Under the pieces are notes generated by a model, which saw only the letters and a list, made by a program, of their open reading frames with translations, did not search any database and was not told where the DNA came from. A stretch of 64,000 nt of DNA, from the NCBI RefSeq assembly GCF_002865645.1, contig NW_020194677.1:558001-622000 (forward strand), given 5' to 3'. Every line of letters begins with the position of its first letter. The stretch's first letter is position 1. Shown here in pieces: positions 1 to 43,402 of the stretch. The stretch comes from Hyaloscypha bicolor E. Taxonomy: Eukaryota; Ascomycota; Leotiomycetes; Helotiales; Hyaloscyphaceae. Made by a program: the position numbers and the translations under genes.

Positions 1-1395
1 AAAATAGAAATACTATAATTTTACTTTTAAAAGAATAAAAGAATAAAATATAGAAATCTAGATAATAGTTACTTTACCTTAGCCTTTTAACTCTTAATAG
101 CAGACTTCTTAATATAGCTTGAATTTTATAAAGTATTAGCCAAATATTCTATTTATCTAATTATTTACTTTTAGCTAGCCTAATACTATATTTCTAGAAA
201 TATTAATTCCTATTAGTATAAAGGTAATATTAATAATTTGGCTATTACTAAAGCTCTAAGTAGTAAGTTTTTCTTTAGTAAGGAAAATCGGAATCTTAGC
301 TATATATTTTTTATAGACTATAAGAAAATAGCTTCCTTTAGTAAAAAAGTTCTTAAGAGTATTAATTATTTCTCTATTTATAATAATTTCGACTTAGAAA
401 ATATAAAGGAATTAAATAAGTATATAGTTAAGTATATAGAAAGAAAGTATTTAAATATATAATATTTAATTAGATAAATAAATACTATTAGCTAAATAAT
501 TTATAAGTCTAAAATTATAGTCAAATAATAATTCTCGAATAAAATAGTAATTAAAGAATAGCTTAATAATAATCTATTATTTAAAAAGCCTTTTATTATA
601 ATTCTAGTAAGCCTAATTACTATTTAGAATAAAGTCTCCTATAAAATTATTAAAGCTTCTTATTAAGAGCTTTCCTTTCTTATTAAAGACTAATTTAAGA
701 ATATTAAGGGTAATATAAAATTCGAAGAAGCTATTTATTTAGAATATATTAGTATAATTTATAATATAATTTGCTATAATAAACCACCTTAGTATCTAGC
801 TATAAAGACTGAAATTAACTAATAATTAAAGGCAAATATTAAATAATAAGGAGAACTATATTATATTTAGTATAAGAATATAGTTAAGCGGGTTTGAATT
901 ATTTTTAAGTAAGTTCGAGAGTATAAAACAAAACTATTTAAGAATAATAGATTATATTTTTAGTATATTATAGAGAAATTAGAAATATTAGTAAAGAAAA
1001 ATTCTAACTATTTTATTATTTCGGATTCTAAATAGGGATTTTCTATTAGTTTTTAGTATTTAGGAAACAAGTATAAATAAATAGGGGATTAGATATAGTA
1101 TAGCAAGCTATATTCTATTAAAATTACTTTATTTTAATAGTTTTAATATTTTAGTTATATAATAAAGACTAGAGCCTTTTATATATAACTTATAGAAATT
1201 ATATAAAAAAGCTAGCTTTTCTATAGTTCTAGATAATAATTTCTTTTTTATATTTAATTAATTAAGCTTTTATATACTATATACTATTTATATTTTACTA
1301 TTTATACCTTTAATCTTATTATTTTATTATTAAGTTATATTTTATACTCTAGTATACTTTATATGGGTTTTTGTTTTATTATAGTTTCTCTCTTA
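1..1395 (+). mobile_element. Giant LTR retrotransposon copy 1: 3' end (ORF2 tail plus 3' LTR), RIP-degraded
   Basis: This is the 3' part of the element that is complete at 23,601-37,229, cut by the window edge. Positions 1-1,080 match the C-terminal half of the second ORF, including a 74-codon open stretch at 238-462 that aligns with the same region near 36,060-36,290 and, reversed, near 10,150-9,900 and 57,490-57,250. A purine-rich tract (AAATAGGGGATTAGA) precedes the 3' LTR at 1,094-1,395. The LTR starts TATAGTATAGCAAG, a C:G to T:A version of TGTAGTACGGCAAG at 23,601. Many in-frame TAA and TAG codons show it is dead. Confidence 0.8.
1094..1395 (+). repeat. 3' LTR of giant element copy 1
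   Basis: A 302-bp LTR that aligns end to end with 23,601-23,903, 36,930-37,229, and the reverse copies 8,971-9,271 and 56,297-56,597. It contains the GTTATATA...AAAGGC/GCCTTT...TATATAAC palindrome at about 1,153-1,190. The adjoining 5 bases (TACTA) are a candidate target duplication whose partner lies outside the window. Confidence 0.8.
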
Positions 1396-2300
1396 TACTA
1401 ATTAGTTTTGTATTATATAAGACTATTTTTATAAGCCTTAAATATATTATTAAAAAAAACTTAAAAAAATTAAAAATTAAAGTATAAAGTATTATACTTA
1501 GCCGCTTTACTAGTAAATTTAGTATTATATAACTGCGATAATACATATAGCTAGGGCTAGTATTTAGAATATTAAAGCTCTTATACTTAAGAGCTTCTCT
1601 CTTTAGTTTAGAATCCTCGGAATAGAGCTATTCTACCTTGCTTTCCAAGCCCAGAGATCCGGTCTCGTAATATAAAGTATAAGACTTAATTATATAAAAG
1701 TTATATTAATAAATCTCGCTTAATTTTGTTTATATACTTACTACTTGCCTTATACTTGCACTTAGTTTTTTTTTTAAAATAATTATAACTTTTATTATTT
1801 AATAATATATTAGTAGTTTAGTATTTAATTAAATTAAATTAGCCTTATATTTATATAATAAGTATTTGTAAAGTTAAGTTTTAAAGTTTTAAAGTTTTAA
1901 AGTTTTCATTGCCTAAGGTATGGAGAAATTAAGCGAAGTGCGCACTCGCTTAGTGAATATATGCCCGAAGTGCGCCCGACGTTATATGTAAAGTACTTAG
2001 AATTTAATTTTTTTTTTTAATTTTAATAAACCTTAATTTTTATTAAAAGTAATAAGAGAATTTAATTATATGATATTAATTAATACTAAGAAGTTTTAAC
2101 TTTTTAAAAATAATTAGTAATACTATTTTAATTAATTAATTTCTTTACTTTACTTTACTTTGCGATTTCTAATTTTTGATTTTCAATTTTCGGGGTTTGT
2201 TTTCTACCTCGTTATTATACTTAAGGTTATTTAATTATTATTTGAATTAGGGAGATTATACTAGAAGGGAATAATTATATACTAGAATAGCTGGCCATAG
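1396..2300. other. AT-rich intergenic stretch with a diverged gypsy-A-like LTR fragment
   Basis: No gene is seen. Around 1,500-1,673 there is a plus-oriented fragment resembling the gypsy-A LTR. The block TTCTACCTTGCTTTCC followed by AAGCCC and ending CGTAATA is the reverse complement of the LTR edge seen at 27,726 and 18,550. A small CpG-containing patch that has escaped RIP lies at about 1,912-1,985. The rest is low-complexity A+T. Confidence 0.55.
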
Positions 2301-3234: not shown

Positions 3235-6200
3235 ATGGCCCAGTTATCGCCAGCGTCAACCGCGTCGTAAGTCCGTTTCTAGTTAGAAATAGCTGATACC
3301 GTCACGTGTATCTTGTAAGACATGGCTTGTGATTGTGGTTAGATCGCTGTTTTATGAAAATATGCATATTATGTGCTTGATCGCGAGTACTTTACGGCTG
3401 ACATGCTACAGATTCCGCGTCGGAAGCACTGTTCCCAATTTCGAAGCCGAGACGACTCAGGCAAGATTGTCCAGCCGTTTCCAGGCACGTCCAACTTCTA
3501 ATGTCAATTCTAGGGAAGAATCAACTTCTACGAGCAAATCCAGGTGAGAAAAGCAGAGAAAAGCAGCGACGAAAGTAATCCGACTATTTACTATAGGGCT
3601 ATTGGGCAATCCTCTTCGCCTTCCCCGATGGTAAGTCCCGTCATTGCCGGATTGACATCTAGCTCCTCTTCGCCGAGCAAAATATTGAGTCTCGCGTTTC
3701 AGACTTTACCCCAGTTGCCACTACAGAGCTGGTCAGCTTCACGGAGCTCCAGTCCGAGTTTGCCCAGCGCCACGTGAAGCTCTTCGCCCTTTCTACCAAT
3801 AATACTCTGAACCACAAAGGACAGTTCGAGCCTCACGAGAAGTGGGTCAAAGACGTTAATGAGATCAGTAGCATCCCTCTCCTGTTTCCTATCATCAGCG
3901 ATGGTGATGGGAGAATCTCCTTGGCGTTCAATGTGTGAGTTCGCAAGCTCAACCTAGAGATACTTTGGAAGAACTCCGCGGCTAACCAAGATTTTCCGCC
4001 AGCCTTGAAGAGTCGGATGCGGATGCAGTGAAGGCTGATGACGCCGTTGGCGAGGGCCTCGCTTTCCGGTCGCGCACTATCTTCGTTATTAACGACCAAA
4101 AAAAGCTAAGGCTGATCTTCAACTACCCGGCCGCTGTCGGGTTGAACACCGCCGAGGTTCTCCGCGTGGTCGACTGTCTCCAGACCGCCGCGCGCGCCGA
4201 GTAGGCTATTCTGTCTCCTTTCCTGTGTTATTTTGTCAACGAAGCTCTCCACTAATCTGCGACTCTACCAGCATACAGACTCCAGCGAACTGGGTTCCGG
4301 GAGGATCGGTCGTCGTGCCTCTCAAGTACGACGACGAGGCTGCTAAGGTAATGAACTGCCTTCGTCTTTGACTGACAACGATTCTGCTGACAGCTCGTTA
4401 GAAAAATTTCCCTGGATTCAAAGCTCTGAAGCCGTACCTTCGCGTCTACCCTCTTCCCAAGGAGGAGACTAGCTTGACGCTGATTGGAGGCTTGTCTGAA
4501 GACGTCGCTGCGCAATTCCTGGCAGTGGGCGATGAGCCCGGGCTGGACGTGCCCGAGAGATATCAGGCCCCTAAGAGCCCTGGTTTATCCTTGCTGCCTT
4601 CGATTTCTGCACAGGAAATTGACGTCAAATCTTATGCATCCGTGCAAGCTGCACCAGAATATGGCACTGCAAGCTACGAAGAGCTGGACTTCGAACTAGT
4701 TCCGACACTTGATTCGGTTTGCCGCATGATCAAGATTGCTAGCTCTGATAAAAGCGGAACAATGTTCGAAGGCAAATGCAACGTATATTGGGATATCATG
4801 AAGTTCTATGAACGGGAGTTGGACCAGGGCGCTAGGCTTCACAACGTCGTCACCGTCACGGGCACACCAACGCATGCGGAAATGGACTCGTGCGAGAAAT
4901 TCATGAAGAAAATATGGTTTTCGTCAGCTCTCGTTGATTGTCTCGATGCATTTATGCGAGCCTCTACAATCCGAGGTGAGTCTTATACAAAGTTCTAATG
5001 ACTTCTTGTCAGTTACAACTTAAAGCTGTTCAAAACCTAACTTCTCACAGATCCCGACAAGCTCTACGATAATACGCATCTCTCCATTGAGAGTAAGGAG
5101 CATGAAGGCCTTGAATATACTTGTTTCTCGATATCTGGCCCGCTGCTTGAAGTTGGTCGATTGGTTCAGCAGCTTGCCTGGCTTACGGCAGCATTCACAC
5201 TTCCCACGCGAAATGCCCTAACGGTATCAACAGCCGTCTTACGTATTGCCGATCCAGGATTGATTGACATTCGATCGAAAAAGATTGACGACCGCAGTAC
5301 CTTAATGCGAGATTCGGTCGACCCTGGAGTGAATCCGACTTGCTGGCATCACCTCTTGCGTGGTGCTGTTTTGGCGTGCGGATTTCCCATATCAGCGCGG
5401 GAAGAAGGCATGGGGTTGGAGATACCGTTTGATCTGATGGTTGGTCTCGCAGATATTCGTACCCAGATAGATATTGGTGAGGGAGCAGCTCTGCTGGGTG
5501 GACCTGGAATCGTGTTGTATCCGACCAAAGTTCTGAGGGACAGCATACAATGGCACTGCGCCAAGGTTGACGATGACGACTACGCGAAACACGACTCTGG
5601 TTCGACTACAGTCCTTGCCAATCAGGATTTTGAGGAGCTCTCAAGTCGCAGAACCTTTCTTGGACATTACTCTCTAGCCGAGGTCTACCTGGGAACCAAG
5701 GATCTCGTTGAATCCAAGGCAGGTCGATGTGAAAGCTCCGGGTTTAACCCAGGACCGGAAAGGATCGAGCTTGCAAAAGAAGGGACATTCAGCGGGGGAT
5801 TTTCCATCAAGAGCATTTTCTCACTGTCCTTCGGCGGCAAATATGTGCTGACAAAAACCTTACTGGTTTCGTTGGAAGGTCGTACTACATTACAAGAACT
5901 TGCGAAAAAGGCAAAAAGTCAGCCCGTGCTCCTCTATGATACGGAAACCAAATCTGCCTGGTTAGTGTCAGAGATTAGCCTGGTATTGCATATCACCCTT
6001 GCATATCTATCAGATCCTGAGATTCAAAATAGGCGGCGTACTGGTTTCAAGAGGCTTTCAGGAGATTGGCCATTACTGCCATACGCTAAGCCGTCTCCTG
6101 ATGGTGGTTTGGAAGCGCACACAGTTTGCATGAACGAGGACAATTGCAACATTGAGTTGTGGTGGGACGAGAAGGAGAAAAAGAAGTTCGGGCATGTCAT

Positions 6201-7152
6201 ACAGGACTTCTTACGAGATTTTCGGTCGATCAAAGATGCGATCATTGCTCAGTCCAAGGGCTGGCGCCCCTGGCCTCTGCCGAAGCTGGGGCTTAGAGGT
6301 TGGGACTATGCCGATTTTCTGAGTCGGAACAGTCAAGTATGGCAAAAGGAAGTGCCTCGCGACGGTTTTGAGACCTCCTGGTGGAAGCTGGAGAACGTTG
6401 AGGGAACGCTAGTCATTCTTGGCCGTGGTTTCGGGAGCGTAATATGGCCTTCCCGGAATTCCAATCCCTCAGGACTAGTTAACATCCAGCCTGAAGCTAG
6501 GCTGTTGGTTGCCAGCAAACCATGCATGGAGATCTTGCGGAAATCCGACGAGCATGGCAAATACTCTCTTGGCTCACTGGAATGGAGGTCTGTCAAGCAA
6601 CGGTCGTGTTGCAGTAACGCCTGCGATAAGACGTCTTGCTTGAACATACAAATCTTGAGATCACACCGACCCTTGAAGGACAACACCGACGATCCACCTC
6701 AAATACTGTTGGATTCTCAGGCTGTTATTTTTGGAGAGGCGGCGCACTATCATGAGGCTCTTACAATAGCGGCAAAATCTAACTGGAGCAAAATAGCAGT
6801 GAAACCCCACCCCGGCGAGTACGTCCGACTGGAACAGATGCAGCTGTCCAATGACAACACATCGCTGATAGGATGGGTCGCCGTAGCCAATCTTGCATTC
6901 GAGAAGGACGTCAGTTGCCGGTATACTTTCGACAACTGGGGAACGTACTTCGATGTTACGGCTCAATACGTCTCTAAAAACCAACAAAACCAGGATCGAT
7001 TCACTTTCAATATCAGCCCCCCCGACCCGGCCAACCTCGAGTCCAAGGCCATGTACTTCTGCATCCGATACAAGGTCAAGGAGATGGTATTCTGGAACAA
7101 CAACAGTGGCTCCAACTTCCGGGTGGATTTCGCTAAGAAGATGCTGTTCTAG
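3235..7152 (+). CDS. Chimeric protein: peroxiredoxin-like domain, uncharacterised region, C-terminal CBM21 domain (9 exons, 1,108 aa)
   Basis: Exons are inferred at 3,235-3,266, 3,412-3,460, 3,514-3,543, 3,597-3,630, 3,703-3,934, 4,003-4,200, 4,272-4,347, 4,402-4,975 and 5,051-7,152. They sum to 3,327 nt, exactly 1,109 codons, with no internal stop. All introns are GT-AG except intron 2, which is GC-AG. Residues 1 to about 239 follow a 1-Cys peroxiredoxin (RVGSTVPNFEAETTQ, WAILFAFPDD, FTPVATTE, FPGFKALKPYLR), but the peroxidatic Cys is Ala54, so peroxidase activity is unlikely. Residues about 240-975 (QQLAWLTAAF at 448, FDLMVGLAD at 535, RTFLGHY at 609) resemble a fungal family of unknown function, judged from memory. 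Residues about 985-1,105 are a CBM21 glycogen-binding module as in Gac1-type PP1 regulators (VRLEQMQLS at 1,000, NLAFEK, FWNNNSGSNFRVDF). The peroxiredoxin part runs on in frame without a stop. The gene shows no RIP damage. The exon model is inferred without transcripts. Confidence 0.8.
3412..4467 (+). other. Domain: 1-Cys peroxiredoxin-like (AhpC/TSA and C-terminal part), Cys to Ala
   Basis: The domain is spread over exons 2-8. The order matches Prx6/Prx1-type enzymes: N-terminal strand, active-site loop, LIALS-like LFALSTNN, the conserved Arg strand (RTIFVI), the VVDCLQT helix, the NWVPG turn and the FPGF...KPYLR end. The active-site loop reads PVATTE (Ala codon GCC at 3,717-3,719) where the family has PVCTTE. 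TGC to GCC needs two base changes and is not a RIP-type change. The Thr and Arg of the active site remain. Confidence 0.8.
6775..7149 (+). other. Domain: CBM21 (starch/glycogen-binding; PP1-targeting subunit type)
   Basis: The C-terminal 125 residues or so carry the CBM21 signature: VRLE near the start, a VAVANLAFEKDV strand, R-TFDNW, DRFTFNIS, then FWNNNSGSNFRV before the end. In yeast Gac1 and metazoan PP1 glycogen-targeting subunits this module binds glycogen or the glycogen synthase complex. An RVDF string near the end resembles the PP1-docking RVxF motif, but it sits inside the module, so a docking role is uncertain. Confidence 0.8.
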
Positions 7153-7468
7153 ACTAGTAAAAGCGGCCTTCAAGGGGTTGCTTCGGGACTGGTAATGCGC
7201 CACCTCGAAATACGCTTCGAATGACGCGGGTTTTTGGCGTATGGTATTTGAGTTATATCACACAATAGCGTACGAAGTGATAAGGATCAAATTGAGTATA
7301 TTGACTAGTTCTAAGGAGGAGTGAAGCGTGAGAAAGCTAAGGAATCTAATATACTTAAGCTCACTTATTTACTTATATAATTAACTCATTAATAAGCGTA
7401 CTAAGCTTAAATTTGCCTAGGGCAATTATATTAAGTAATTAATTTACTTACTTTTATTTAATTAAAGC

Positions 7469-7507
<39 letters not shown>

Positions 7508-8970
7508 TAATATTTTATAATTAAGATAAACTATATATTAATATAAAGCATTATATAAATTATTATTTTATTTTCTATATATATATATATAAGGATTTAT
7601 TTTCTCTTAATTCTTAATTCTTTTAAACTTTTAATAATATATAATATTAATATTTAAATACTTCTTTAAACTTTTCTTAAGCTCTTTAATTTTTACTTTT
7701 ATATTCTTTTATAACTAAATTTAAAATAATAAAGTTTTTACTTAATTTTTATTTTATTTTAATACTTTTTATAAAGTTAATAATAATTTTACAAATATTT
7801 CTTAATATATTTTTCCTTAATATTTAATTATTTACTTTTATAATAAAGTATAAGAATTATTATAAATAATAAAATTATTAAATATTAAGTTATTTATAAG
7901 TTTATAATTTCTTAGCTTTATATTCTTATACTAAATTTCTTTAATTATTTTTGAATCCTTAATATAAAATATATTTATAATAATTAATAAGATATTTTTT
8001 ATTTAAATTATTTTTAATAAAAGAATAAAAGTAAAAATAGTAAAAGTACTAATTTTTTAATTTTTTAATTAAGAAAATAATAAATACTTAATTATATACT
8101 TTAAATAATATATAATATTAAGTAATAATAAATATTAAACTTATTTATAATTATTTAAAAAAAGGTAATAATATAATTATATAATATTAAATATCTTAAT
8201 TCTTTTATATTATATTTTATATATTTTTTAAAAATATTTATAATAAGTTTATATTTATTATTATTTAACTTTTACTTACTTACTTTTTAAGTTTTCTTAA
8301 AACTAACTTAAGAAATACTATATATAATAAGCTTTTTATATATATATAAAGTTATTATTTTTATATATTATTTTTATTTCCTTAATTTTAAATCCTTTAT
8401 TTATAAATAATATTTAAAAGATTTAAATATTATATTATATTTGATTTATTTATATTTATATCTTTTATATATTATTATATTATTTAAAGCTTATTTATTT
8501 TATTAAAAAAGGCTTTTATAATATTTTTACTTTTGCTTTTAAAAGTATTTAAAATATTAAAACTAAATTCTTAATATTTTAATTATAATACTTTTTAAAA
8601 AAAGTTAAAAAGATTTATATTATATAAAATAATATTTAAATATTTTTAAAAAATTAATAAGCTCTTTTAATTCTTTAAGAATATTATAATTATTAATAAT
8701 ATATATAATTACTTTTAAGACTTTATTATTTAATATTATTAATAAGAATTTAATTATAATAATATTTTAAGGAAATTAAATTTATAAGTATTATATAAAT
8801 AAATTTAAATATTTTTTTAAACTAACTTTTAATAAAGATTATTAAGATAAATAATTCTTAATAAGCTAATTTATATTTATAAAAATAATACTTTAATATT
8901 TTTATTTATAAATAAATAATAAATATACTAAATTTAATAATTATTAATTAAGTATTAAAATAGCTATTAT
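7153..8970. other. AT-rich stretch between island 1 and giant element copy 2
   Basis: About 180 bp of GC-normal 3' flank gives way to very AT-rich sequence near 7,340. No gene is seen. It contains an ATT-type microsatellite at about 7,470-7,501 and an imperfect inverted repeat (about 45-bp arms, about 8,115-8,160 and 8,230-8,278). It may be the fully RIPped body of an element that can no longer be identified. Confidence 0.6.
7470..7501. repeat. ATT trinucleotide microsatellite
   Basis: About ten uninterrupted copies of a TTA/ATT unit in intergenic AT-rich DNA. Confidence 0.9.
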
Positions 8971-9271
8971 AAGAGAGAAACTATAATAAAACAAAAACCC
9001 ATATAAAGTATACTAGAATATAAAGCGTGATTTAATAGCAAAATAATAAAATTAAAAGTATAAATAGTAAAGTATAAATAATAAATAGCATATAAAAGCT
9101 CAATTAATTAAATATAAAAAAGAGATTATTATTTAGAATTATAGAAAAGCTAGCTTTTTTTTATAATTTTTATAAGTTATATATAAAAGGCTCTAGTTTT
9201 TATTATATAACTAAAATATTAAAATTATTAAAATAAAGCGATTTTAATAGAATACGGCTTACTATATTATA
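8971..9271 (-). repeat. 3' LTR of giant element copy 2
   Basis: A 301-bp LTR homologous to the five others in the window. The outer edge reads TAAGAGAGAAA on the plus strand. Five flanking bases are TATTA (8,966-8,970). It contains the palindrome at 9,175-9,212. Confidence 0.8.
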
Positions 9272-10915
9272 TTTAATTTTCTATTTATTTATATTTATTT
9301 CCTAAATACTAAAAACTAATAGAAAATCCCTATTTAGAGTTCGAAATAATAAAATAATTAGAATTCTTTTTTACTAGTATTTCTAATTTCTCTTTAATAT
9401 ACCAAAAATATAATCTATTACCTTTATATAGTCTTATTTTATATTCTTAAACTTACTTAAAGGTAATCCGAACTTGCTTAATTATATTTTTATATTAAAT
9501 ATAATATAGTTCTTCTTATTATTTAATATTTATTTTTAATTATTAATTAATTTTAGCCTTTATAGCTAGATACTAAGGTAACCTATTATATTAAATTAAA
9601 TTATAAATTATATTAATATATTCTAAATAAATAGCTTCTTTGAATTTTATATTACTTTTAGTATTTTTAAATTAGCCTTTAATAAGAAGGGAAAGCTCTT
9701 AATAAAAAACTTTAATAATTTTATAAGAGATGTTATTCTTATATATTTTGTCCTAAATAATAACTAAGCTTATTAGAATTATAATAAAAGGCTTTTTAAA
9801 TAGTAGATTATTATTAAGCTATTTATTAATTATAATTTTATTCGAGAATTATTATTTAATTATAATTTCAGACTTATAAATTATCTAGCTAAAGATATTT
9901 ATTTATCTAGTTAAATATACTATACTTAAATACTTTTCTTTTATTTTCTTTACTAAATACTTATTTAATTTCTTTATATTTTTCAAGTTAAAATTATTAT
10001 AAATAAAGAAGTAATTAATACTTTTAAGGACTTTTTTACTAAAGAAAACTGCCTTCTTATAATTTATAAAGAAAATATAGCTAATATTTCGATTTTCTTT
10101 TCTAAGAAAGAATTTTCTATTTAAAGCTTTAATAATAGCCAGATTATTAGTATTTCCTTTATATTAATAGTAATTAATATTTTTAGAAATATAGTATTAG
10201 GCTAGCTAAGGGTAAATAACTAAATAAATAGAATATTTAGCTAATACTTTATAAAATCCAAGCTATATTAAGGAATCCGCTATTAAGAATTAAGAGACTA
10301 AAATAAAATAGCTATTATCTAGATCTTTATATTTTAATACTTTATTCTTTCGGAAATAAAATTATATTATTTCTATTTCTTTTATTAAAAGCTCTTAAAT
10401 ACTAAATTTCTTGGTTTATTTTAAGTAATTCCTCTTATAAATATAGCTATTTATACTTAAATTAGAAATACTAGATTTAGAAATAGAAACTATAATATTA
10501 AATTAGAGCTATAAATTTGGACAGAATTAATTAGAAATCTAATACTTATATTTATAGTTTATAATTTCTTTATTTTCTAAAAAGAAATCTTATATTTCCT
10601 TATTTATTTAAATAATAGAAATATACTTTTTATTTTTAATAATTTTATAAATCTTAGTAATTATCTTTAAGATATCTATAAGCTTAATATTAATTATCTA
10701 AATAAAAAGAATATTAGTAAATTACTAGAGATATATTTTATAGGAAGCTTTAAGAAATCCGTTAATAATTCTATAATATTCTTATTTATAAATAAGTTCT
10801 CGAATACTATTATATAATTCCTTAAAGATATAATTATACTAATAACTAAATATTAGCTTCTATTTAGCTAATATTTTATAAGTATAATATTTAAATATAT
10901 TATTAATATTATTAG

Positions 10916-10990
10916 TTTTCTTTTTCTTAGTTTTCTTTTTCTTAGTTTTCTTTTTCTTAGTTTTCTTTTTCTTAGTTTTCTTTTTTTTAG
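10916..10990 (-). repeat. 15-bp tandem repeat, five copies, inside ORF2 copy 2
   Basis: The unit TTTTCTTTTTCTTAG is repeated about five times. On the coding (minus) strand it gives a Lys-rich string. The corresponding sites in copies 3 and 4 are not expanded, so the array grew after this copy separated. Confidence 0.85.
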
Positions 10991-11127
10991 TTTTTAAAGT
11001 CTTTCTAGTTAGTATTTTCTTTTTATTTTCCTTTATTTTATTTCCTAGTATATTACTAGTTTTATATTTAGACTAGTATTTAGATCTATACTATTTATTA
11101 GAACTTTTAGGCTTAGCTAATATATTA

Positions 11128-11176
11128 AATAAATAGATTAGATTAGAATACCGGCCAGTAATCTAATCTATTTATT
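11128..11176. repeat. Perfect 18-bp inverted repeat with 13-bp spacer at an element junction
   Basis: AATAAATAGATTAGATTA (11,128-11,145) faces its exact reverse complement at 11,159-11,176. The spacer, GAATACCGGCCAG, is unusually GC-rich for the region. It lies where giant copy 2 ends and the hAT region starts, so it may mark a transposon terminus. Confidence 0.75.
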
Positions 11177-12152
11177 AAATATTCTTACTAATTATATTCT
11201 AATTAGATTCTAATTAAAGTAATTATAAATATTTATAAATACTTTAAATACTTTATAAATAATATTATATATAATATATATATAAGCGGCTAACCAAATC
11301 GGGTAGGGCTCCGGGTACTTCCGATCTAGTACTATCTTACTACTTAATTAGAAATAGTAATACTTAATAAGTAAACTAAAGCTTAATAATTCTTCTAGAA
11401 TTATTTTAACTTAATTATTTAGTAATATTAGTAATTCTAGAACTAAATATTAGAAGTTAAAGAACTAGAATCTTTGAAATAAGTAGATTCTAGATAATTA
11501 GAAGAAGAACTTAGAAGCCTTTAGAATATTAGAACTTTCTATAAAAGTATATTAATTTTCTTAATTTTTATTTCTTATCTATATTTTATTTATATATAAA
11601 AACTTAATTACTATTTCTATTAATATATTTTCTATTATAAATATATTCGATTATATTTAATATATTCGAAAATATCTTAAGGATCTTTAATTAAGTTTAA
11701 CTTAACTTAAAATTATTCTGAATTTAAGTTAAAGCCTATTAATAAATAAGCTTCTCTCTTTAAAAAGAGCTACTTAAGAAAGACTTTAGATTCTATATAA
11801 GAGAATCCTAAAAAGACTTATATATATACTATAAGATACTTAGTTCGAGGTTATTTATAAGTTATTATATCTATATATAATTTTTATTTAATTAATATAT
11901 ATAATAATAAAACTTAAATAAATTAATAAATATATATTTTTATAAGTAATTATTATATTTATTTTTAAAATTTATATAAATTTATAGATTTTAAGACTTT
12001 TAAAGAAAATAAAAATAATAGTAAGTTATTTTATATTAAATAAAAAACTAGATTTACTAATATATTTAATAAGTAAAAGTAAAGCTTCTAGTCAAGTTTT
12101 ATAAATAACTATAAATAGCCTTTTTAATAAGTAATCTAAATAATAAGAAGAA
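11177..12152 (+). mobile_element. hAT transposon, left part (split by gypsy-A)
   Basis: This AT-rich segment joins the hAT transposase remains at 18,826-21,048 once the retrotransposon at 12,153-18,825 and one AAGAA duplicate are removed. Plus-strand reading frames are broken by stops, and I cannot identify the N-terminal BED finger with certainty. A GC-richer patch lies at about 11,283-11,330. Near 11,225-11,275, ATT-TAAAT repeats resemble RIPped versions of the ATTCATGAAT repeats at the right end (21,170-21,290). Confidence 0.6.
12148..12152. repeat. Left target-site duplication of gypsy-A (AAGAA)
   Basis: AAGAA lies immediately left of the LTR edge and matches AAGAA at 18,826-18,830 immediately right of the other LTR. 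A 5-bp duplication is typical of Ty3/gypsy integration. Confidence 0.85.
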
Positions 12153-21669: not shown

Positions 21670-23150
21670 CTATCGAATCTTAATCAGCCTTTCTCCAAGG
21701 CAGTCTCCTAGTAGCAATTCCTTCGAGCCCTTAGAGAACGCGATAATCCCTTCTTGCACTGTCCCTATTAACTTTGCCAGTCCGGCTCTTGAAAACAGAC
21801 TAGTGTGGCCTTCGGTCTCTAACGTTGCCGTGAGGCTCGTCAAGACTAGGCAGAATATGTCCAAATTGCGAGAGTTCCAGTCTCCTGGATGGGTTTCGGC
21901 CATCACCGGAAATATGTATAGTCTGTCGCCAAGGCTATTTGAACGCTTCGAGTCCATCCGTACGGCGTGCTTATCTGGGACTGAATGTAGGTATGAGAAG
22001 AATAGGTTGTTCTGGAAATCGTAGTGGCTCGACCCATGCTCCTCCCAGATTGCCGATTCTGAGGCTCGATATAATCGTCCATGAATCTTGGCCACACCGC
22101 CCATAACAAGTCCAAAGGGATATTCCTCATTTTCTAAGAAAATATCCACCTTCTCCTTCCTGCAAAGTTCCTTAGCGCCATGCTTTCGATAGTACTCTCT
22201 CGAGAATTTGACTGGGAAATCCGACGACGTCAAGGACCAGGACGGGATGGATGTAACTGCCACTGCTGCGCTGGACGATTCTTTTGTAGCATTTTTACGA
22301 TAGGACTCCTCGGTCCGGGAATGCAGCCAAGGGTCAGTTACGCACCAAATCAACTCTTCAAGGAAGTCGCCTTCCCAAAGTCTAGCTAGGTACTTGTCTC
22401 CATGAGCGGGGTATTGCAAGACCAGTTCCATGGCAACTCCAGACAGTGCTGGCAAGCGATCCGAGTTTGTAGTAAATTAACATCTGGAGTACGATTTGAT
22501 GAGTTGCCGCCAGTGTTTGTAGAATGCAGGTATGGAATTATCCAACGCTATATAGTCAACTGGGGGATCATCGTCACTGGGATCATCGTCACTGGGATCA
22601 CCTCTCAATTGTTGTGACTTGAAAGGTTAAAACGATCGGACTGCCGGTGGCAATCTCTGTGGGAATTCTTCGCAGCTCTCTCCATGAGCACATTCCCAGA
22701 ATAGTTGTGCCCCGAAGCTTAATGTCCGAGGGCTCAGGAACCGCTCCTGGAATACCCATCCCCTTTGGTTCAATTCCGCTGTATCGATGCTGCTTCTAAA
22801 ATGAGAATCTTCCGGGATAACGCAATATGTTCTCACATCGTTTAGCCACAGCGCATCTGCCATGAATGCGGGAACGGCCGATTCTTTGGCCACATACAAT
22901 GATGCCGTCTCCGGGTCACTAGCTGCCGCCAGAGCTGAAATATTGAGAGCACCATTCTTATAGACTTTGTGCATTCTAGAAGCCTCCCGAGTCCAGTCAG
23001 AGTGTGAGTCTTGGATTATACAGAGAGCATCAATCAAGATGAAGTCGAAGCCTAGTTTCATCGTGAAAACAATGGCGTCTTTAAAAACGGTTGGAAGATT
23101 ATAGAAGGACTTATTACAAATTAACAATAGAGATACTTAAAAAATAAAAT
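21670..23150 (-). pseudogene. HET-domain (heterokaryon incompatibility) pseudogene, N-terminally truncated
   Basis: One minus-strand frame runs from about 23,127 to the TAG at 21,670. It is broken only by TAA at 22,627-22,629 and TAA at 22,477-22,479, both consistent with CAA to TAA (RIP-type) change. HET motifs are clear: LPTVFKDAI, LIDALCIIQDSHSDW, RMHKVYKNGALNISA, LNQRGWVFQERFLSPRTL and FWEC, then the usual downstream SDRLPALSGVAM and LARLWEGDFLEELIWCV. The start of the HET domain (the SYCWG strand) is missing: the kinase-ankyrin 3' end lies about 100 bp upstream, and the joining sequence is AT-rich. HET proteins trigger cell death after non-self recognition in fungi. An in-frame 15-bp tandem duplication (DPSDD twice) lies between the two stops. 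As it stands it is not expected to make a working protein. Confidence 0.88.
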
Positions 23151-42693: not shown

Positions 42694-43402
42694 TATTATA
42701 AATATAGTCTTTTGGGCTTAAAAAGCAAGATATAAGGTTTTTTATAAAAATAATTTAAAGCTAAAGAAAGAAAAACCAGAATATAGAAAGCTATAAAGAA
42801 ATATATATATTTTATAATATATTAGTTTATAATATATTAGTTTATAATATATTAGTTTATAATATATTAGTTTATAATATATTAGTTTATAATATATTAG
42901 TTTATAATATATTAGTTTATAATATATTAGTTTATAATATATTAGTTTATAATATATTAGTTTATAATATATTAGTTTATAATATATTAGTTTATAATAT
43001 ATCAGTTTATAATATATCAGTTTATAATATATCAGTTTATATATATATATTAGTTTATAATATATTAGTTTATAATATATTAGTTTATAATATATTAGTT
43101 TATAATATATAGTTTATAATATATTAGTTTATAATATATTAGTTTATAATATATTAGTTTATAATATATTAGTTTATAATATATTAGTTTATAATATATT
43201 AGTTTATAATATATTAGTTTATAAGGGGTTTAGTTTTTTTTTAAATATCTTTAGTATATTTCAAGTATACTTTTCTAATAAAGTAGCTATATTATATATA
43301 TTTAAAAGTAATAGAATATAGGTAATGAGATATAAATAACGAAATATAAATAATTATTAGATAATTATATTAGCTAATGAGATTAAAAGCTAAATTATAA
43401 TA
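42694..43402 (-). repeat. 5' LTR of the gypsy-A fragment, expanded to 709 bp
   Basis: The edges match the LTR (TATTATAAATATAG at left, TATAATA at right). The middle carries the tandem array at 42,811-43,222. Confidence 0.85.
42811..43222. repeat. Minisatellite: 15-bp unit TTTATAATATATTAG, about 27 copies
   Basis: A nearly perfect head-to-tail array. Variants include three ATCAG units near 43,000-43,030, one with an AT-run insertion near 43,036-43,052, and one shortened unit near 43,106. The unit is a RIPped form of the single LTR segment TATACTAGTCCATAA (about 18,674 in the intact LTR), so the array grew from LTR sequence. Confidence 0.92.

Follow-up and report, generated by a model that had tools for sequence, protein, structure and literature searches.

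A spliced three-part gene of Hyaloscypha bicolor that joins a probably inactive 1-Cys peroxiredoxin, a PF28131 core and a CBM21 domain

Introduction

The N-terminal domains listed for fungal NLRs include protein kinase, HET and nucleoside phosphorylase domains (PMC9815663), and putative integrated decoys, kinases among them, have been proposed for these receptors (PMC12258605). The carbohydrate-binding domain CBM21 is found in the PP1 glycogen-targeting subunits PPP1R3A-C and is also carried by the Hybrid B heme peroxidases of fungi, for which the abstract of PMC5571214 suggests binding to cell-wall carbohydrates. Here we describe a gene of Hyaloscypha bicolor E that recalls each of these systems. 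It lies at positions 3235..7152 on the forward strand of a window of 64,000 nucleotides (the whole stretch analyzed; contig NW_020194677.1, positions 558,001 to 622,000, assembly GCF_002865645.1), to which all coordinates below refer unless another contig is named. Provided that a spliced entry in the protein database (P0001) is assembled RNA, a single transcribed gene encodes a predicted dead 1-Cys peroxiredoxin, a middle module labeled PF28131 and a CBM21, the single transcript being supported for exons 5-9.

The likeness to fungal NLRs and HET-type modular proteins lies in a conserved core whose N-terminal domain varies, and the Pkinase, HET and nucleoside phosphorylase types overlap with those listed in PMC9815663. 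The chimera, however, has neither NACHT nor NB-ARC nor a repeat domain, and its C terminus is a CBM21. The tripartite NLR layout is thus incomplete, since the N terminus varies across the family but Pfam finds no C-terminal repeats in the chimera, and because no nucleotide-binding domain was found we do not regard it as an NLR but as a protein that resembles one in layout. Nor did the Pfam scan find a HET domain in the chimera; among the paralogues a single one carries it, and that copy looks broken. As in the Hybrid B peroxidases, a peroxide-related domain precedes the CBM21, but theirs is a heme enzyme unrelated to peroxiredoxin and the abstract mentions no PF28131 core (PMC5571214). Like PPP1R3A-C and a second CBM21 open reading frame (ORF) of this genome, the chimera keeps the aromatic and Asn positions of the domain, but it has no evident PP1 docking motif and is unrelated to them outside the CBM21.

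Results

Gene structure and evidence for a single transcript

The gene has nine exons (3235-3266, 3412-3460, 3514-3543, 3597-3630, 3703-3934, 4003-4200, 4272-4347, 4402-4975 and 5051-7152) of 32, 49, 30, 34, 232, 198, 76, 574 and 2102 nt, 3327 nt in total. A preliminary description of this DNA had reported that the exons sum to an exact multiple of three without a stop, and the spliced frame indeed holds 1108 codons (1108 aa), free of frameshifts, with the terminal stop as the only one. Seven introns are GT-AG and intron 2 (3461..3513, 53 nt) is GC-AG; the latter lies outside the sequence covered by P0001 and is backed by the peroxiredoxin alignment. Intron 8 (4976..5050, phase 1), which is spliced in P0001, splits the N-part of the middle module from its main part, and several PF28131 paralogues have candidate introns at about the same place.

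The evidence for one transcript comes from P0001, a protein of 1036 aa from a 3374-nt contig of source 'lgn'. It matches residues 73-1108 of the chimera at 99.9% identity, the sole difference being Val73, whose GTG codon is read as a start Met, and it continues across introns 5, 6, 7 and 8 exactly as modeled. Since an unbroken passage over these four introns is impossible from unspliced DNA, and since the gene turned up once in a search of the genome, with no retrocopy in this assembly, P0001 is best read as assembled RNA, a reading inferred from its splicing. The peroxiredoxin, the middle module and the CBM21 are placed on one transcript because the spliced P0001 crosses both domain borders. 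The proposal of an intact three-part chimera is borne out in this way: a single transcript over 4,402-4,975 and 5,051-7,152 had been named as its test, and P0001 joins peroxiredoxin to middle and middle to CBM21 in spliced form. Introns 1-4, upstream of its coverage, are supported by exons 2-5, which align with normal peroxiredoxins without gaps to about residue 89, where an insertion near residue 90 ends the gapless stretch. The P0001 contig has 263 nt outside its ORF, which would be room enough for the remaining 216 nt of the frame.

In a Pfam scan the chimera matched AhpC-TSA at residues 14-163 (E 8e-20) and CBM_21 at 998-1100 (E 1.7e-31), the latter agreeing with the early statement that the protein ends in this module; 1-cysPrx_C at 185-220 fell just below threshold (E 6e-4, 20.1 bits against a cut-off of 21.1), and no Pfam domain was found between the peroxiredoxin part and CBM_21. 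The end of the peroxiredoxin part (residue ~239, position 4467) and the start of the middle share exon 4402-4975, so the in-frame passage within one exon described earlier is correct. Between them lies a linker of residues 240-311 (4468..4683), placed from BLASTP, in which the two nearest relatives with a named source begin to match at residue 312, and the fusion point would fall at about this linker.

The peroxiredoxin part

Residues about 11-239 (3412..4467) form a 1-Cys peroxiredoxin-like domain, as judged from Pfam, alignments and the match of residues 12-232 to the yeast mitochondrial PRX1 (5ykj, E 8e-52). Both the AhpC/TSA-type thioredoxin fold and the 1-Cys C-terminal part of the family are recognizable by sequence, whereas a structure model of the protein was not reliable in this region. 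We took the catalytic positions to be the peroxidatic Cys, a His and two Arg. Compared with the PRX1/PRDX6 type, the chimera keeps the P...T motif and one Arg (Pro47, Thr51 and Arg150) but has Ala54 (3717-3719) at the peroxidatic Cys, Phe46 for the His and Leu173 for the second Arg, and its chain extends about 870 residues further. The PxxxTxxC motif reads PDDFTPVA. A pseudo-peroxiredoxin had been proposed earlier, and because of these replacements we also call the domain dead: it is, to judge by these residues, a member of the fold family and not an active peroxiredoxin.

Two peroxiredoxins of the same genome, on contigs C70 and C51, read HPEDYTPVC and GRNTAE where the chimera has FPDDFTPVA and GLNTAE. 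They are identical to each other at 176 of 214 positions (82%), and the chimera to them at 111/219 (51%, C70) and 103/214 (48%, C51), with 96 of the 176 columns common to the two retained. An intron after residue 125 looks common to all three genes, as judged from breaks in the reading frame. Owing to the low identity and this shared intron position, the segment seems to be an old copy that arose at the DNA level and has diverged for a long time. Among 1697 candidates for further long proteins that carry this peroxiredoxin, the single match was P0001 itself. A further peroxiredoxin-like gene of the genome (C21:1179470-1180049, L047) has the peroxidatic Cys, but in the assembly its match is interrupted by a stop codon.

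The CBM21 part

The CBM21 (residues 998-1100, 6817..7125) is identified by its Pfam match and by alignment with solved PPP1R3 CBM21 domains, with which it aligns at Trp1038, Trp1090 and the WNNN..N segment (1090-1097). It thus has both the profile and the aromatic residues conserved for binding, and because the Trp and Asn positions of the solved domains are kept, binding of glycogen is plausible. A whole-genome search located CBM21 at two places, the chimera and an ORF at C51:1476678 that we would read, from its translation, as GAC1-like. Pairwise identities among the domains of the chimera, the C51 ORF and a protein of Clarireedia (P0004) are 46-48% (chimera to C51 48%, to Clarireedia 47%). 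An RVxF-like pattern, which we take to mark PP1 docking, occurs in the chimera only at residues 29, 386/387 and 1099, inside domain segments.

The PF28131 family

The middle module spans residues 312-979 (4684..6762), its N-part (312-408) in exon 8 and its main part from 409 in exon 9. PF28131 is a label precomputed in the protein database, where P0001 and 17 other proteins bear it; our own Pfam scans, whose local copy of Pfam seems to lack this profile, returned no PF28131 line, and no paper on the label was found in the literature searched. Both protein searches were word-based and scored part of the candidate list, and their counts are of matches listed. Residues 236-1108 retrieved at least 6 proteins, all PF28131-labeled, and a profile of the middle at least 15, all PF28131 and 12 of them new, which makes at least 18 different proteins overall. 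Sources named among the matches listed are Pochonia chlamydosporia, Conoideocrella luteorostrata, Clarireedia jacksonii and Coniochaeta, and the middle of the chimera is 50% identical to that of Pochonia (P0002), 50% to Conoideocrella (P0003) and 40% to Clarireedia. Within this genome four queries converge on 13 middle loci (13, 13, 13 and 12); one of these gave 23 matches, of which those beyond the 13 were additional exons, peroxiredoxins and a single CBM21. By these matches the middle belongs to a family with members in several Pezizomycotina, and is not the lineage-specific gene it had been taken for.

The two flanking domains are much rarer. None of the 17 relatives has a peroxiredoxin label or match (precomputed labels, with our own scans of 7 of the 17). 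Of the 18 proteins, P0001 and P0004 alone bear a CBM21 label, at the same place after the middle; the domain occurs at 1 of the 13 middle loci of the genome, and for this reason appears to be an accessory part of the family. Most of the other relatives are represented by short contig ORFs that stop soon after the middle, and they may lack exons. The order peroxiredoxin-middle-CBM21 was seen in no other protein among the matches listed in the word-based searches, in keeping with the early remark that no protein of this architecture was known. Because middle plus CBM21 occurs in Clarireedia, whose protein has no peroxiredoxin match, the peroxiredoxin is, of the three parts, the one that has so far been seen only here.

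Variable front ends

We scanned 17 chosen stretches at 11 of the 12 paralogous loci and, at the twelfth (C8), the main-part ORF alone. A front-end domain above the curated Pfam cut-off was found in 5 of the 12 paralogues. An NDT80_PhoG front end (C70:3038500-3047500, L038) is encoded in the same ORF as the N-part of the middle, which makes a clear second chimera, and two DUF6590 front ends, on C1 and C62, each stand in one uninterrupted ORF with the N-part. A Pkinase front end (C27:0.64 Mb) and a HET front end (C70:3520000-3529000, L045) would each join the middle via a candidate GT-AG intron. The HET match is split over two same-frame ORFs with a stop between them, and the main part of this locus is fragmented, with a stop interrupting the match in one of the fragments. 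Because a same-frame stop interrupts the HET match this paralogue is probably broken, although it is a matter of judgment both that the HET part connects to the middle and that the stop marks a break and not an intron. Of the other seven paralogues, C75 has a weak propeller match below cut-off and six show no domain, C8 being one of them; another of the six, C27:50k, has by eye a Cys-rich front end like that of Pochonia P0002. Among the relatives in other fungi, Conoideocrella P0003 has a TPR-like front end (27.3 bits against a cut-off of 27.5), Clarireedia P0004 the C-terminal half of a nucleosidase (NCBIfam E 5e-7, below the model cut-off; Pfam 0.029), and P0017 and P0018 weak ankyrin matches.

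A midpoint-rooted tree of the middle covered 30 sequences and 533 columns; four loci entered it as main-part ORFs that were put together approximately, with no splice model. In this tree the chimera and P0010 form a group (support 0.999), which is joined next by the Pochonia and Conoideocrella relatives (0.997). Clarireedia lies further out, weakly placed with P0013 (0.349). As front ends differ between branches of the clade of the chimera, they appear to have changed within one clade. Predicted domains thus show the family to pair a conserved core with unrelated N-terminal domains, and the three one-ORF fusions (NDT80 and DUF6590 twice) carry the argument for swapped front ends.

Genomic setting

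The gene sits in an island of ~50% guanine-cytosine (GC) content between flanks (1-2000 and 7001-12000) at 8-24% GC. It is enclosed by an inverted pair of a repeat (left arm 2..1408, right arm 8957..10378), a dispersed element found on many contigs; the arms are AT-rich, about 87% alike, and differ by 155 transitions and 26 transversions, a pattern resembling repeat-induced point mutation. A tandem array that reads as YYKLI repeats (42745-43113, minus strand) lies in another AT-rich stretch. The HET repertoire of the genome is very large, with 785 first-look candidates and all 150 of 150 scored above the Pfam cut-off. Within the window a HET-domain ORF of 169 aa lies at 22630-23136 on the minus strand (Pfam HET E 3.5e-19), and a second ORF (21673-22476, 268 aa) may continue it.

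Discussion

A possible way to understand this protein, which we put forward tentatively, is as a modular intracellular receptor or surveillance-like protein that would work like those with which fungi respond to non-self and to damage. In this view the fold of the dead peroxiredoxin would be a bait or docking surface, perhaps a dimerization surface as in its relatives, and could report interference with real peroxiredoxins or their oxidation state; the middle module would relay the signal, and the CBM21 would anchor the protein on glycogen or another alpha-glucan. Several observations support such a receptor. The catalytic residues are gone while the frame is intact and more than half of the conserved peroxiredoxin columns are kept, the same core carries other front ends, which differ even between branches of the clade of the chimera and overlap with the N-terminal domains of fungal NLRs, for which putative integrated decoys have been proposed, the transcript is single and spliced, the CBM21 keeps the aromatic and Asn positions of PPP1R3, and the genome is rich in HET. 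Weighing against it, the middle has no functional annotation, no solved relative by profile and, for the structure model of its main part, no fold match, so its signaling role is a guess. No NACHT or NB-ARC appears in the chimera among Pfam matches up to E 1, seven of the 12 paralogues have no front-end domain above cut-off in the scanned stretches (at C8, in the main-part ORF), and the HET paralogue, as said, looks broken. P0001 begins at codon 73, which leaves the first four exons, with part of the dead active-site region, outside its coverage. Moreover, a domain that lost its activity long ago may be no more than a relic.

This last point leads to an explanation that we hold to be rather unlikely, namely an old fusion by read-through of two neighboring genes, after which the peroxiredoxin segment drifts without a selected function. 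The loss of three catalytic positions, the identity of only about 50% to the two normal peroxiredoxins, the AT-rich, repeat-filled surroundings and the decayed look of one PF28131 paralogue would all fit drift. A drifting segment accords less well with a 1108-codon frame that has neither stop nor frameshift, with the clean splicing of introns 5-8, with the 96 conserved columns, or with the unrelated domains that other PF28131 members also hold at the front. We think it distinctly improbable that the protein is a regulator of glycogen metabolism that brings a phosphatase or some other enzyme to glycogen in the manner of GAC1/PPP1R3, with the peroxiredoxin fold as an oligomerization part, because the flexible stretch before the CBM21 shows no evident RVxF-like docking site and because the CBM21 is accessory to the family.

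The preliminary description had suggested a possible recent origin, with the gene assembled in an accessory compartment from a resident peroxiredoxin, a lineage-specific gene and a GAC1-like gene. The isolated GC island and the inverted repeats around it would suit such an event, but the flanking repeat is dispersed, the middle family occurs in several Pezizomycotina and at 13 loci here, and no close donors were found among the genes compared, the peroxiredoxin being about as far from the normal ones as stated above and the CBM21 about equally far from C51 and from Clarireedia. Since Clarireedia already has middle plus CBM21, there is no need to place the joining of a GAC1-like gene in this genome. 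We consider a recent assembly very improbable; what endures of that interpretation is one intact, transcribed three-part gene with a predicted pseudoenzyme, in an order unique among the matches listed. Fungal annotation often fuses neighboring genes, and two genes misread as one, or an assembly artifact, might have produced the same picture; P0001, an independent sequence that crosses both domain borders spliced, makes this extremely unlikely.

Returning to the receptor-like protein, a wider and more doubtful extension would make the PF28131 proteins surveillance receptors of fungi without a nucleotide-binding domain, in which a conserved core without a fold match bears at its N terminus an exchangeable bait that is a copy of a host protein (peroxiredoxin, NDT80 factor, kinase, DUF6590 or HET), and the dead peroxiredoxin would be an integrated decoy on a glycogen-anchored receptor. 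If the receptor-like reading holds, a further fungal family, beyond NLRs and HET proteins, would combine one core with copies of ordinary cell proteins, a dead peroxiredoxin among them. The 13 loci with their differing front ends form a natural set in which to ask whether such domains are baits, effectors or relics.

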